Source: Candidatus Paralachnospira caecorum
GTDB lineage: Bacteria; Bacillota; Clostridia; Lachnospirales; Lachnospiraceae
Direction of reading: 5' to 3'
Length of the DNA stretch: 64,000 nucleotides
NCBI GenBank assembly: GCA_904379015.1
Contig: CAJFHG010000002.1
Span: 62,001-126,000 of the forward strand
The position numbers and the translations under genes are program-made. How positions within the stretch are numbered: position 1 is the stretch's first letter; each line of letters opens with the position of its first letter. The notes beneath the pieces were generated by a model. That model did no database searches. It saw only the letters and a program-made list of their open reading frames with translations, and was not told where the DNA came from. This document shows, in pieces, positions 1,490 through 61,890 of the stretch.

Positions 1490-3607
1490 TTATTTGCCTC
1501 TTTCGGCAAGAACTTTTTCCTGTACGTTCTTCGGTACCTGCTCGTATCTTTCAAAGAACATGGAGTAGGCCGCACGTCCCTGAGTCTTGGAACGAAGGTC
1601 CGTTGCGTAGCCGAACATCTCTGACAGGGGAACATAACCCTTGATCAGCTTGGACCCGTTGACATCATCGAAGGATTCGATCCGTCCGCGGCGGGAGTTG
1701 ATGTCGCCGATTACGTCGCCCATGTAATCCTCGGGAGTTGTAACCTCGACTCTCATGATCGGCTCAAGCAGCACGGCATTGCCCTTCTGCATCGCATCCT
1801 TGAAGGCCATGGAGCCGGCGATCTTGAATGCCATTTCAGAGGAGTCTACTTCATGGTAAGAACCATCGTAGCAGGTTGCCTTAACGCCCAGCACTTCAAA
1901 TCCGCCCAGAATACCGGACTTCATCGCATCCTGGATACCGGCGTCTACCGCAGGGATGTATTCCTTCGGAATGGCGCCGCCGACAACCTCGGAAACAAAT
2001 TCATAGGTTTTCTCAGCATTGGCATCCATGGGCTCAAAGCGTACCTTACAGTGACCATACTGGCCGCGGCCGCCGGACTGCTTCGCGTACTTGCTGTCCA
2101 CATCCACAGCCTTGGTGATGGTTTCCTTATAGGCAACCTGAGGCTTGCCCACGTTGGCCTCCACCTTGAACTCGCGGAGCAGACGGTCTACGATGATCTC
2201 CAGATGGAGCTCACCCATACCTGCGATGATGGTCTGTCCCGTCTCAGGGTTGGTGGACACGCGGAAGGTGGGATCCTCTTCAGCAAGTTTCGCAAGAGCT
2301 TCGCCCATCTTGTCCTGTCCGGCCTTTGTCTTGGGCTCGATGGCAATATCGATAACAGGTTCCGGGAATTCCATGGATTCCAGGATAACCGGATGCTGTT
2401 CGTCACAAATGGTATCACCTGTAGTTGTTACCTTGAAGCCGACCGCTGCGGCAATGTCGCCGGAATAAACCTTATCCAGCTCCATTCTCTTATTTGCGTG
2501 CATCTGAAGGATACGTCCCACACGCTCTTTCTTTCCCTTTGTCGCGTTGAGCACATAGGAACCGGAGTTCATGGTTCCGGAATATACCCGGAAGAAGGCC
2601 AGCTTTCCTACGAAAGGATCGGCCATGATCTTAAAGGCCAGAGCGGAAAAAGGCTCTTCATCAGATGAATGTCTCTCGATGGGATTCCCGTCCAGATCGG
2701 TCCCCTTGATGGAAGGAATGTCTGTAGGCGCGGGCATATATTCCACAACGGCATCCAGAAGCTTCTGTACGCCCTTGTTTCTGTACGCGGTTCCGCACAG
2801 TACGGGAATGATCTCAACCGCGATGGTTGCTTTTCTCAGAGCGGCCTTCAGCGCTTCCTCAGAAGGCTCCTCACCCTCCAGATACTCCATCATCAGATCG
2901 TCGTCTGTCTCGCAGATCGCCTCGATCATGGCAGTTCTGTACTCTTCAGCCTGCTCCTTCATATCCTCGGGAATCGGCTCAATGGAAATATCCTCGCCCT
3001 TCTCATCATTGTAGATATATGCCTGCATCTCAAACAGGTCAATGATTCCCTTGAAGTCATCTTCTTTTCCAATCGGCAGCTGAACCGGAACGGCGTTATG
3101 ACCAAGACGGGTCTTGATCATATCTACTGCGTTGTAGAAGTTCGCGCCCAGGATATCCATCTTGTTGATGAACGCGATTCTGGGTACATTATACTTATCA
3201 GCCTGGCGCCATACAGTTTCTGACTGAGGTTCCACACCGCCCTTCGCGCAGAACACACCCACAGCGCCGTCCAGCACACGCAGGGAACGTTCTACTTCAA
3301 CGGTAAAGTCAACATGTCCGGGAGTATCAATGATATTGATACGATGCTCCAGGGCGCCCGGCATCTTCTTGTTTTCTTTCTGCAGAGTCCAGTGACAGGT
3401 TGTAGCCGCGGAAGTGATGGTAATACCTCTCTCCTGCTCCTGCTCCATCCAGTCCATGGTAGCTGTGCCCTCGTGGGTGTCGCCGATCTTATAGTTCACG
3501 CCTGTGTAATACAGAATACGTTCCGTCAGAGTCGTCTTACCCGCATCGATATGAGCCATGATACCAATGTTCCTGGTCCTCTCCAAAGGATATTCTCTTC
3601 CAGCCAA
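1490..3607 (-). CDS. fusA: Elongation factor G
   Basis: [32 protein letters not shown]..., 705 aa. Confidence 0.99.
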
Positions 3608-12764: not shown

Positions 12765-12855
12765 CCGTCCCCTCCTTGTCTTCATTCCTCCTGCATGAAT
12801 CAATGTCAGTATAATATTGTATCCAAAGAAAAACAATCTTTTTCCGCAAAAAGGT

Positions 12856-12883
12856 TTGACATTTTTCCTGACATGTATATAAT
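12856..12883 (+). promoter_or_regulatory. Sigma-A type promoter (TTGACA-16-TATAAT)
   Basis: TTGACA at 12856-12861 and TATAAT at 12878-12883. Confidence 0.75.
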
Positions 12884-12889
12884 ATTAAT

Positions 12890-13066
12890 TGTACAGAACA
12901 AAGGCGTGCTGGTATTGATCGGCGCGCCTTATTTGTTTTGGGGAAATCCCTTTCCCGAAAGCAGATTTTTCTGTACTGGCAAGAGAGCCTCAGCTCTTTT
13001 CCGTAAAGGACCTGAAAACAACTATCCTTTCCTTACCTTTACGGACTGCCAGCACTTGTTTTCCCT
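12890..13066 (+). ncRNA. Candidate structured intergenic ncRNA, family unknown
   Basis: Near-consensus promoter, no convincing ORF, stems GTGCTGG/CCAGCAC, CCGTAAAGG/CCTTTACGG, CTGGCA/TGCCAG, GGGAAA/TTTCCC; ends in TTGTTTT. Confidence 0.6.
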
Positions 13067-13156
13067 CACATTATATTAATATGACATGGAGAGCCGTCCC
13101 CGAAGCCGATTCGCGGCGGCTCTTCATGTTGTATTCCCTTCTTCCGCAGCGCTGCC

Positions 13157-16076: not shown

Positions 16077-18197
16077 TTATACCTCAAATGTCAGATCACC
16101 ATAGGAAGGAATCGGCCAAAGATCCTTATCCACGATCATCTCCAGCTTGTCAAGAGGGGTTCTCAGATCAGTCATAACAGGCATCACCGTATCATGATAC
16201 GCTCTCGCCTGAACCTCTCCTTCTTCCGCTGCCGCCGCTGCCGCCGTCACCTTCTTCAGTGTCTTAAGCGCCTTCTGAGATTCAGAAAGCAGGGCGGAGG
16301 TCTCAATCAGCAGATCCTTCTGAGCGCTTGTATCCGCCTCAGGGCAGGCCTCAGACACTGCGCTGATGGAGGCGGCAAGATCCGTCGTATAATTGATCAC
16401 CGCCGGGATCAGCTGCTTGCCGGCCATATCGATCATGGTAAGCGCTTCAATATTGATTGCCTTGGCATAAGTCTCATACAGAACCTCGGCGCGGGATTCC
16501 AGTTCCGCTCTTGTGAAAATATGGAATTTCTCAAAGAGCTTTACAGCCTTCTCTGTCGTCAGGCTGGATACGGAATCCACCATGGATTTGATATTGGGCA
16601 ATCCTCTCCTCTCTGCCTCAGCCACCCATTCCTCTGAATAACCGTTGCCGTTGAAAATGATCCTCTGATGCTCTGTCAGGTATTCCTTGATCAGATCATG
16701 AACGGCCATATCGAAATTGTCGGCCTTCTCCAGAATATCGGCAGCCTCGCAGAAGGCTTCCGCAACCATCGCATTCAGGGTCGTATTGGGGCTTGCGATG
16801 GAATCGGAGGATCCTACCATACGGAATTCAAATTTATTTCCTGTAAAAGCAAAGGGTGAAGTTCTGTTCCGGTCGGTGGCATCCTTCATCAGATCCGGAA
16901 GGGTGCTGACGCCGGTGTAAAGGCGCTCGCCTTCCTTGCAGGAAGCCGCCTCGCCTTTTTCGATCAGCTGCTTGACCACATCCTCCAGCTGCTCGCCGAG
17001 GAAAATTGAAATGATCGCCGGCGGCGCCTCGTTGGCGCCCAGTCTGTGATCATTGCCCACGTTCGCGGCCGACTGACGGAGCAGATCCGCGTGAATATCC
17101 ACTGCCTTGATGATGCAGGCCAGCACCAGAAGGAACTGGATGTTCTGATTGGGCGTATCGCCGGGATCCAGCAGGTTCACGCCATTATCCGTACAGATGG
17201 ACCAGTTGTCATGCTTTCCGGAACCGTTCACGCCGGCAAAGGGCTTCTCATGGAGCAGGCATGCCAGTCCGTGGCGCTGCGCCACTTTTTTCATGGTCTC
17301 CATGACCACCTGATTGTGGTCCACCGCGATATTGGCATTATTGAAGATCGGGGCCAGCTCATGCTGTGCCGGAGCCACTTCATTATGCTGCGTCTTCGCG
17401 GAAATGCCCAGCTTCCACAGCTCAATATTGAGATCCTTCATAAAGGAACCGATCCGCTCTTTGATGACGCCGAAGTAATGGTCGTCCATCTCCTGTCCTT
17501 TGGGAGCCGGCGCGCCAAACAGGGTCCGTCCTGTATAGATCAGGTCCTTTCTCTGGAGATACAGATCCCGGTCCACCAGGAAATACTCCTGCTCGGGTCC
17601 GACGGACGCCGTTACCTTCGTCGCTTCCGTATTGCCGAACAGTCTCACGATCCTCAGAGCCTGCTCAGAAAGCGCTTCCAGGGAACGGAGCAGAGGCGTC
17701 TTTTTGTCCAGCGCCTCGCCCTTGTAGGAACAGAATGCGGTAGGAATGCAGAGGATCACGCCTGTGGCGTCTTCCTTCAGGAACGCGGGAGATGTGATAT
17801 CCCAGGCTGTATAGCCTCTCGCCTCAAAGGTAGCGCGCAGACCGCCTGACGGGAAGGAAGAAGCATCCGGCTCGCCCTTGATCAGCTCTTTGCCTGAAAA
17901 CTCCATCAGCATATGGCCTTCCTCATCGGGATTGGTCACAAAGGAATCATGCTTTTCCGCCGTGATCCCTGTAAGAGGCTGGAACCAGTGGGTATAATGG
18001 GTCGCGCCGTGCTCCACCGCCCAGTCTTTCATGGCCTTGGCCACCACATCGGCAGTTGCCAGGGACATCTCGCCGCCGTGGTCTATGATGTTTTTCACTT
18101 CTGCATACACTTTTTTGGGAAGACGTTCTTTCATCTTGCCCAGCGTGAAGACATTTTCACCAAAAATCTCTTCGATGTTCAAAGTTTTCTCACACAT
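16077..18197 (-). CDS. glnN: Type III glutamine synthetase
   Basis: About 706 aa; [40 protein letters not shown]; start after GGAGGAAATATCT. Confidence 0.96.
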
Positions 18198-18377
18198 AGA
18201 TATTTCCTCCATAATCTTATCCTCGGACCCGATAAATAAAGAGAAGACGCCCTTTGTGGAACGTCTTCGTTCGGTTATCAAGTCTTATTTTGGGAGCCCT
18301 GACTCCATCTGCCTTTTACCATACCTCATTTTCTTCAGAAATGCAAGCACTTTTTTCGGTACTTTCAGCTTTTTCAC

Positions 18378-33066: not shown

Positions 33067-33109
33067 AGACGCATCGCCAGCATGAAAACAGCCATGCCGA
33101 AAATACTTT

Positions 33110-33275
33110 AAGTAGCGCTCCATCCGGCTGGATGACAGTCATACAGCTCTTAACCATATGCCCAGGGGATCTCTATGCAGGCCAAGCCTCCCTTCGGCGT
33201 CTTTCCCTTTCTCCCGGTATCCTCTGTGCCTGTTCACATCCACCGGCCTACTGATGAAAAACGCGACCTCTACTT
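33110..33275 (-). promoter_or_regulatory. Lysine riboswitch (L-box) upstream of dapA
   Basis: Minus strand GUAGAGGUCGCG...GGGAAAGACGCCGAAGGGAGG...CUGGGCAUAUGGUUAAGAGCUG...GACUGUC...GGAGCGCUAC matches L-box conserved blocks and P1 closure. Confidence 0.92.
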
Positions 33276-33301
33276 TGGTTATTCAGTTAACAGTTTATGC
33301 C

Positions 33302-55550: not shown

Positions 55551-55850
55551 TGCCCTTTCCTGTCCGTAGACAGAAAAGGGCGAAATAACCGCGGTACCAC
55601 CTTTTTTCAGCCGCGCTTTCTGCAGCCGCGGCTCTCATTGGCCTTTTAACGGAGGCTGGCCGTGACTGCCTACTGCCGCCCGGAAACAGGGCGCTTCAGC
55701 AGTCAGACTCAGAAGCTACCTTCTGCCAGTGCTCTCATGGACGGCCTTCCAGCCGGTGAACCGTCCTCTCTGCATGCGCTGCCGGCATACTCCTCTTCCT
55801 CACAGTCTGTATCGCTTTCCGATTCTATACTCCGCCGGCCAAAGCCGTCC
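55551..55850 (-). promoter_or_regulatory. T-box leader of valS
   Basis: AAGGTGGTACCGCGGTTATTT T-box sequence, stem III GACTGC...GCAGTC, terminator GCCCTTTTCTGTCTACGGACAGGAAAGGGC. Confidence 0.95.
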
Positions 55851-61763: not shown

Positions 61764-61890
61764 CCGCCCCCAATGAGAATATAAAAGGGCAGCATTCGCA
61801 AAGTACAAATGCTGCCCAGACGGTCGGCTTATATGGATCCCGGCTGCACCGTGTTTTCACGCTTTCCCGCCAGCGACCGAGACCTTTTAT
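61764..61890 (-). promoter_or_regulatory. Probable ZTP (pfl-type) riboswitch with terminator upstream of FNT gene
   Basis: GGUCUCGG-UCGCUGGCG...GUGAAAACACGGUGCAG-CCGGGAUC...GCCGACCGUCUGGGCAGC, overlapping a 10-bp terminator GGGCAGCAUU/AAUGCUGCCC-UUUUAU. Confidence 0.72.

Follow-up and report, generated by a model that had tools for sequence, protein, structure and literature searches.

Between an M20 peptidase/amidohydrolase gene (Pfam PF01546, 11481-12764) and a cyclophilin-type PPIase gene (PF00160, 13157-13684), both on the minus strand, Candidatus Paralachnospira caecorum carries a promoter on the plus strand, and the question raised by this locus is what that promoter serves. All positions refer to the window, that is, the whole stretch of 64,000 nucleotides that was analysed. 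The promoter (12856-12883) consists of TTGACA (12856-12861), a 16-nt spacer and TATAAT (12878-12883). It matches the consensus at 12 of 12 positions and is the sole such match within 2 kb, shuffled sequences yielding 1.7 sites of at least 9/12. The original prediction placed here a promoter-driven structured RNA of unknown family, and both the promoter and its direction, opposite to that of the two neighbours, are as it claimed. Transcription is predicted to start at about 12890 on the plus strand, and the RNA would be divergent from the M20 gene and convergent with the PPIase gene. A probable promoter of the M20 gene (TTGTTTTTCTTTGGATACAATATTATACT) lies at 12806-12845 on the minus strand and is kept in G002, a genome of the same genus; since it diverges from the RNA promoter, the RNA and the M20 gene may be regulated jointly.

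On the plus strand, the region 12890-13066 folds strongly: its energy is -73.8 kcal/mol, whereas shuffled versions average -41.4 and none of 200 folds as well (z -7.56, compared with -3.85 for the minus strand). All the stems that had been listed from the letters of the sequence are present in it. The MFE fold contains an outer stem, P0, formed by GUACAGAA (12891-12898) and UUCUGUAC (12969-12976), then a hairpin GGGAAA/UUUCCC (12941-12956) and a three-way junction (12976-13052), in which the stem CUGGCA/UGCCAG goes with hairpins at 12982-13000 and 13001-13044; for 12940-13066, z is -5.5. Beyond it, a strong palindrome, ACAUG..CAUGU (13081-13132, z -6.0, 37/45 identical in G002), separates the convergent RNA and PPIase gene and is a possible transcript end in either direction.

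A DNA search in 98 relatives returned one short syntenic match, in G002, which appears to be Fusibacillus kribbianus YH-rum2234, and one match to promoter plus hairpin in another genus, which adjoins glutamine synthetase III. Between its M20 and PPIase genes, G002 keeps the promoter, the 5' hairpin, P0, a second hairpin and the 3' block. Its P0 reads AUACAAAA/UUUUGUAU, and in this comparison of two sequences two pairs are altered on both sides. The GGGAAA/UUUCCC hairpin has no counterpart there, and a short GGCAGU/ACUGCC hairpin stands in place of the three-way junction; extra hairpins absent from G002 account for much of the fold strength of the window copy. At 42 of 44 positions the 3' block (13045-13088) is the same in both copies, while the flanking genes are 78-79% identical (p 0.0016); the block contains a single-stranded CUUGUUUUCCCUCACAUUAUAUUA as a candidate pairing (seed) region. 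We considered a small ORF in this block, and rejected it, since the two copies differ in length by 2 nt and no frame survives this, which argues against a coding function. The glnA start codon, the one target tried, ranked 24th of 376 gene starts and is unconvincing, given the likeness of the block to an anti-Shine-Dalgarno sequence. At the level of sequence, the evidence supports an RNA that is promoter-driven, highly structured and apparently non-coding and that can fold in alternative ways.

The idea of two competing folds holds as well, though the pair of folds is a different one. The end-to-end pairing GUGCUGG/CCAGCAC, which had been proposed to close the molecule, loses two of its seven pairs in the one ortholog (GUGCUUG versus CCAACAC in G002), and the relevant rivalry lies at the 5' end, as described below. 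This pairing, together with the size of the RNA, had also been taken as a sign of a divergent 6S RNA. With RF00013, neither the window nor the genome as a whole yields a match at E<=10, whereas eight of 14 control genomes searched in the same way do; the pairing is not conserved, and the 5' end is organised differently and is accounted for by a leader family. We thus give almost no credence to a 6S RNA, despite the likeness in length and possible end-to-end pairing. Nor did any other Rfam family match the window RNA at the gathering score, and none was convincing below it, the sub-gathering matches being solely to terminator-like models such as L20_leader. Elsewhere in the window, Rfam marks a T-box leader (55573-55812), a lysine riboswitch (33105-33280) and a ZTP riboswitch (61807-61887), all on the minus strand.

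The 5' end can form two hairpins. The first, CAGAAC[AAAGGC]GUGCUG (12894-12911), is a candidate ANTAR-target hexaloop hairpin, with the loop at 12900-12905, A and G at loop positions 1 and 4, and AC/GU as closing pairs; these are the features, A1/G4 and two closing base pairs, that were shown to matter for recognition by EutV (PMC3369931). The second is terminator-like, with a stem at 12901-12930, the loop AUUG and a U-rich tail, UUAUUUGUUUU, the whole spanning 12901-12939 (z -6.1 for 12890-12939). Since the loop and 3' stem of the hexaloop hairpin are the 5' arm of the terminator-like hairpin, the two are mutually exclusive. An ANTAR-target loop is expected to sit on at least three base pairs; in the hexaloop stem of the window RNA, two pairs next to the loop are followed by an A.G mismatch in third place (12897/12908) and by three more pairs. 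Its terminator-like hairpin is far stronger than that of the glnA leader of the same genome (-27 versus -18 kcal/mol), which may tilt the switch towards off; either the window RNA needs a stronger signal for read-through or its hexaloop is losing function. In 12886-13135 we found no second ANNGNN hexaloop hairpin, and Rfam detected no riboswitch at the window RNA at gathering or relaxed thresholds. The window element is present in a single copy in its own genome, and no gene follows it on the same strand in the window.

In other genomes, similar elements do precede genes. In other Lachnospiraceae, a search with the hairpin pattern located them immediately after promoters, with glnA, amtB, glnK-amtB or asnB following. 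The exact pattern ACAAAGGC..GCCTTTTTGT was dropped as a family marker, as it matched the nitrogen leaders but also ordinary promoterless terminators. When 84,980 prokaryotic genomes were scanned for a promoter followed by AC[AANGGC]GU, at least 118 stretches matched, those listed being mostly from Clostridia. In the 86 matches read, stem pairs three and four, left free by the pattern, are canonical in 93% and 92% (69% and 59% in shuffled sequences), and 77 of the 86 have at least four contiguous stem pairs. We aligned 63 leaders among the matches listed, leaving out those with fewer than four pairs except those of the window's genus, and obtained a covariation score of 0.419 against 0.221 for shuffled alignments. 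In the same alignment, 70 cells show changes on both sides (33 in shuffles), and moving the pairing over by a single column cuts the paired fraction by half. The terminator directly overlaps the hexaloop in 65 of the 68 leaders outside ethanolamine (eut) loci among the matches listed. A model built without this genus still matched the window element (32 bits, E 3.6e-4), with no comparable match elsewhere in 396 kb of the same genome, and gave 14 bits for the G002 copy. The RNA is not wholly of unknown family as first supposed: its 5' part is a widespread promoter-proximal element with ANTAR-target hallmarks, and it is the part after the 5' switch that has no known family. Rfam has no model that picks up the 5' part, and its silence there means little, since no ANTAR match was obtained even for eut leaders bearing the canonical dual hexaloop.

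The genes behind the leaders, named by recognisable N-termini and clustering with a profile search for part at most, are, among the matches listed, glutamine synthetase in 28 cases, the glutamate/asparagine synthases gltB/asnB in 18, pyrG (CTP synthase) in five, amino-acid ABC transporters in three, and gdhA and amtB in two each, with guaA, carA and purA as single cases. Ethanolamine genes, the classical ANTAR targets, stand behind leaders at four loci among the matches listed. Some hexaloops fall outside the scanned pattern. Upstream of a liv-type ABC gene (L188 in G002, L192 in G010) and of pyrG (L194 in G008), hexaloops near the promoter are closed by different pairs, as in UAGC[AAAGGC]GCUA and AGGC[AAGGGC]GUCU, and each has a terminator behind it, which makes the family broader than the AC/GU pattern. 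In the window itself, the gene of GSIII (16077-18281, minus strand) has a leader at 18232-18275 in which GAAC[GAAGAC]GUUC overlaps a terminator-like GAAGACG/CGUCUUC; the layout is that of the AC/GU leaders, with G for A at loop position 1.

Like the dual-hexaloop leaders, the elements combine an A1/G4 hexaloop, closing AC/GU pairs, exclusion by a terminator, nitrogen genes and an ANTAR gene in the genome. They differ in the number of hexaloops. The characterised ANTAR leaders (eut/EutV, nasF/NasR, amiE/AmiR) contain two (PMC3369931), one in a recruitment and one in an antitermination hairpin, whereas here a single hexaloop stands at the transcript start and is directly overlapped by the terminator; the window copy, in addition, has no gene behind it. 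Among the matches listed, 57 of the 68 non-eut leaders are without a second hexaloop, and the 11 with one compare with 5.8 expected from shuffles. When upstream sequence, terminator loops and downstream sequence were inspected in the leaders listed, no second hexaloop beyond chance was found upstream, and downstream there was a modest excess. Because the hairpin starts 6-16 nt past the -10 box, there is no room for one upstream. By contrast, four of the five eut leaders recovered among the matches listed have it, for instance GAGC[AAAGGA]GCUC after CAC[AAAGGC]GUG. The 2022 paper on the structure of EutV with RNA redefined the minimal ANTAR site as a single hexaloop, but held that antitermination requires the protein to touch both hexaloops one after the other, and called for more work on the role of single-hexaloop sites (PMC8934654). 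We found no description of a single-hexaloop ANTAR regulon in Clostridia in the library searched, though one may exist; nitrogen leaders in Firmicutes are listed in the supplementary tables of PMC3369931.

Two hexaloops being needed in the characterised systems, the leader family could be real and yet be read by a factor other than an ANTAR protein. We judge this improbable, since the leaders agree with the ANTAR site in loop and closing pairs, the first hairpin is common to eut leaders with the canonical dual hexaloop, and the element is associated with ANTAR genes both across genomes and within an operon. In the own genome, the one ANTAR gene found (PF03861) lies directly behind glnA, whose leader carries the single-hexaloop element. 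Across the phylum, an ANTAR gene occurs in 203 of 399 genomes (51% background) and in 15 of the 16 sampled genomes with a true element, true and false model matches having been sorted by eye on hexaloop and context (p 2.6e-4, kinship ignored). The sorting discarded five of 21 genomes with a model match, four without and one with an ANTAR gene, as tRNA promoters or matches without a hexaloop; the one genome with a true element and no ANTAR gene is 79% complete, and the other matches in ANTAR-less genomes were rejected as elements. Unsorted, the count is 16 of 21 (p 0.014, kinship ignored). The own genome (G000, 95.7% complete) shows no ammonium transporter gene (PF00909), which is unusual given a nitrogen regulon.

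Why, then, does the window copy have no gene behind it? One answer is that a nitrogen gene was lost from behind promoter and switch, the remainder decaying or being just the end of the PPIase transcript. The hexaloop stem is degraded in both copies, its third pair being A.G in the window and in G002 against canonical pairs in 93% of the family matches listed. The G002 hexaloop, AACGGC, has a stem weaker still, and its low model score points the same way. In addition, the RNA occupies the M20-PPIase locus in two of 11 genus members sampled and was not found there in the other members searched, even where the M20 and PPIase genes are still neighbours. On the other hand, the perfect promoter is kept in two species (as TTGACT/TATAAT in G002), the window copy has a strong structure, and the conservation of the 3' block exceeds that of the flanking genes, so we regard an orphaned leader as rather unlikely. 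Two more stand-alone leaders occur in other genera, beside GSIII (G037) and beside amtB (L069). In the latter case (Lachnospiraceae S14_Bin3, JAETON010000017.1, about 2150-2590, minus strand), a leader of the single-hexaloop kind lies beyond amtB; behind it come about 230 nt of diverged UUGACUAGUUUUUGACU-type repeats and then a terminator-like hairpin, an arrangement that looks like a repeat RNA under the single-hexaloop switch.

A second answer would be that the RNA mainly titrates the ANTAR protein off glnA and other leaders, like EutX/Rli55 with EutV in ethanolamine utilisation. Both are stand-alone RNAs with ANTAR-type hexaloops, and an additional single hexaloop has been noted in EutX/Rli55 (PMC8934654). 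EutX/Rli55 is controlled by a B12 riboswitch, however, whereas the window RNA has no riboswitch or other control and offers a single hexaloop on a stem weakened by the mismatch. Titration also leaves the conserved 3' block unexplained. It is conjectural for the window RNA, and we find it unlikely as its main role.

With about even confidence, we instead read the window RNA as a stand-alone small RNA that is gated by a single-hexaloop, ANTAR-type switch and forms part of this Lachnospiraceae genome's nitrogen regulon. What is read from the sequence is the promoter, the pair of mutually exclusive hairpins, the fact that the 5' element belongs with leaders whose stems covary, the nitrogen-gene context of that family and its co-occurrence with ANTAR genes; binding by the ANTAR protein, antitermination, a nitrogen signal and a role in trans are inferred. 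Transcripts would begin near 12890, and as long as no signal is present their 5' bases would form the terminator-like hairpin, most transcripts ending at about 45-50 nt. An active ANTAR regulator, the product of the gene behind glnA, would hold the hexaloop hairpin so that the terminator could not form, and a longer structured RNA of about 170-240 nt would be made. This longer RNA would probably act in trans through the conserved single-stranded C-rich 3' block. The leader family is better supported than the function of the window RNA.

On a wider scale we propose, with confidence slightly short of even, that single-hexaloop ANTAR antiterminators at the very start of transcripts make up a large family, which governs nitrogen metabolism across Clostridia without the recruitment hairpin so far regarded as necessary, and that some members, the window RNA included, control stand-alone regulatory RNAs. 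Single-hexaloop candidates ahead of glnA, gltB, asnB, amtB and pyrG in Clostridia, common gut lineages among them, make the single-site question directly testable. To our knowledge, few nitrogen-responsive regulatory RNAs are known in the group to which the window bacterium belongs. If our reading is true, a stand-alone RNA behind a nitrogen-gene switch would be such a nitrogen-responsive regulatory RNA.
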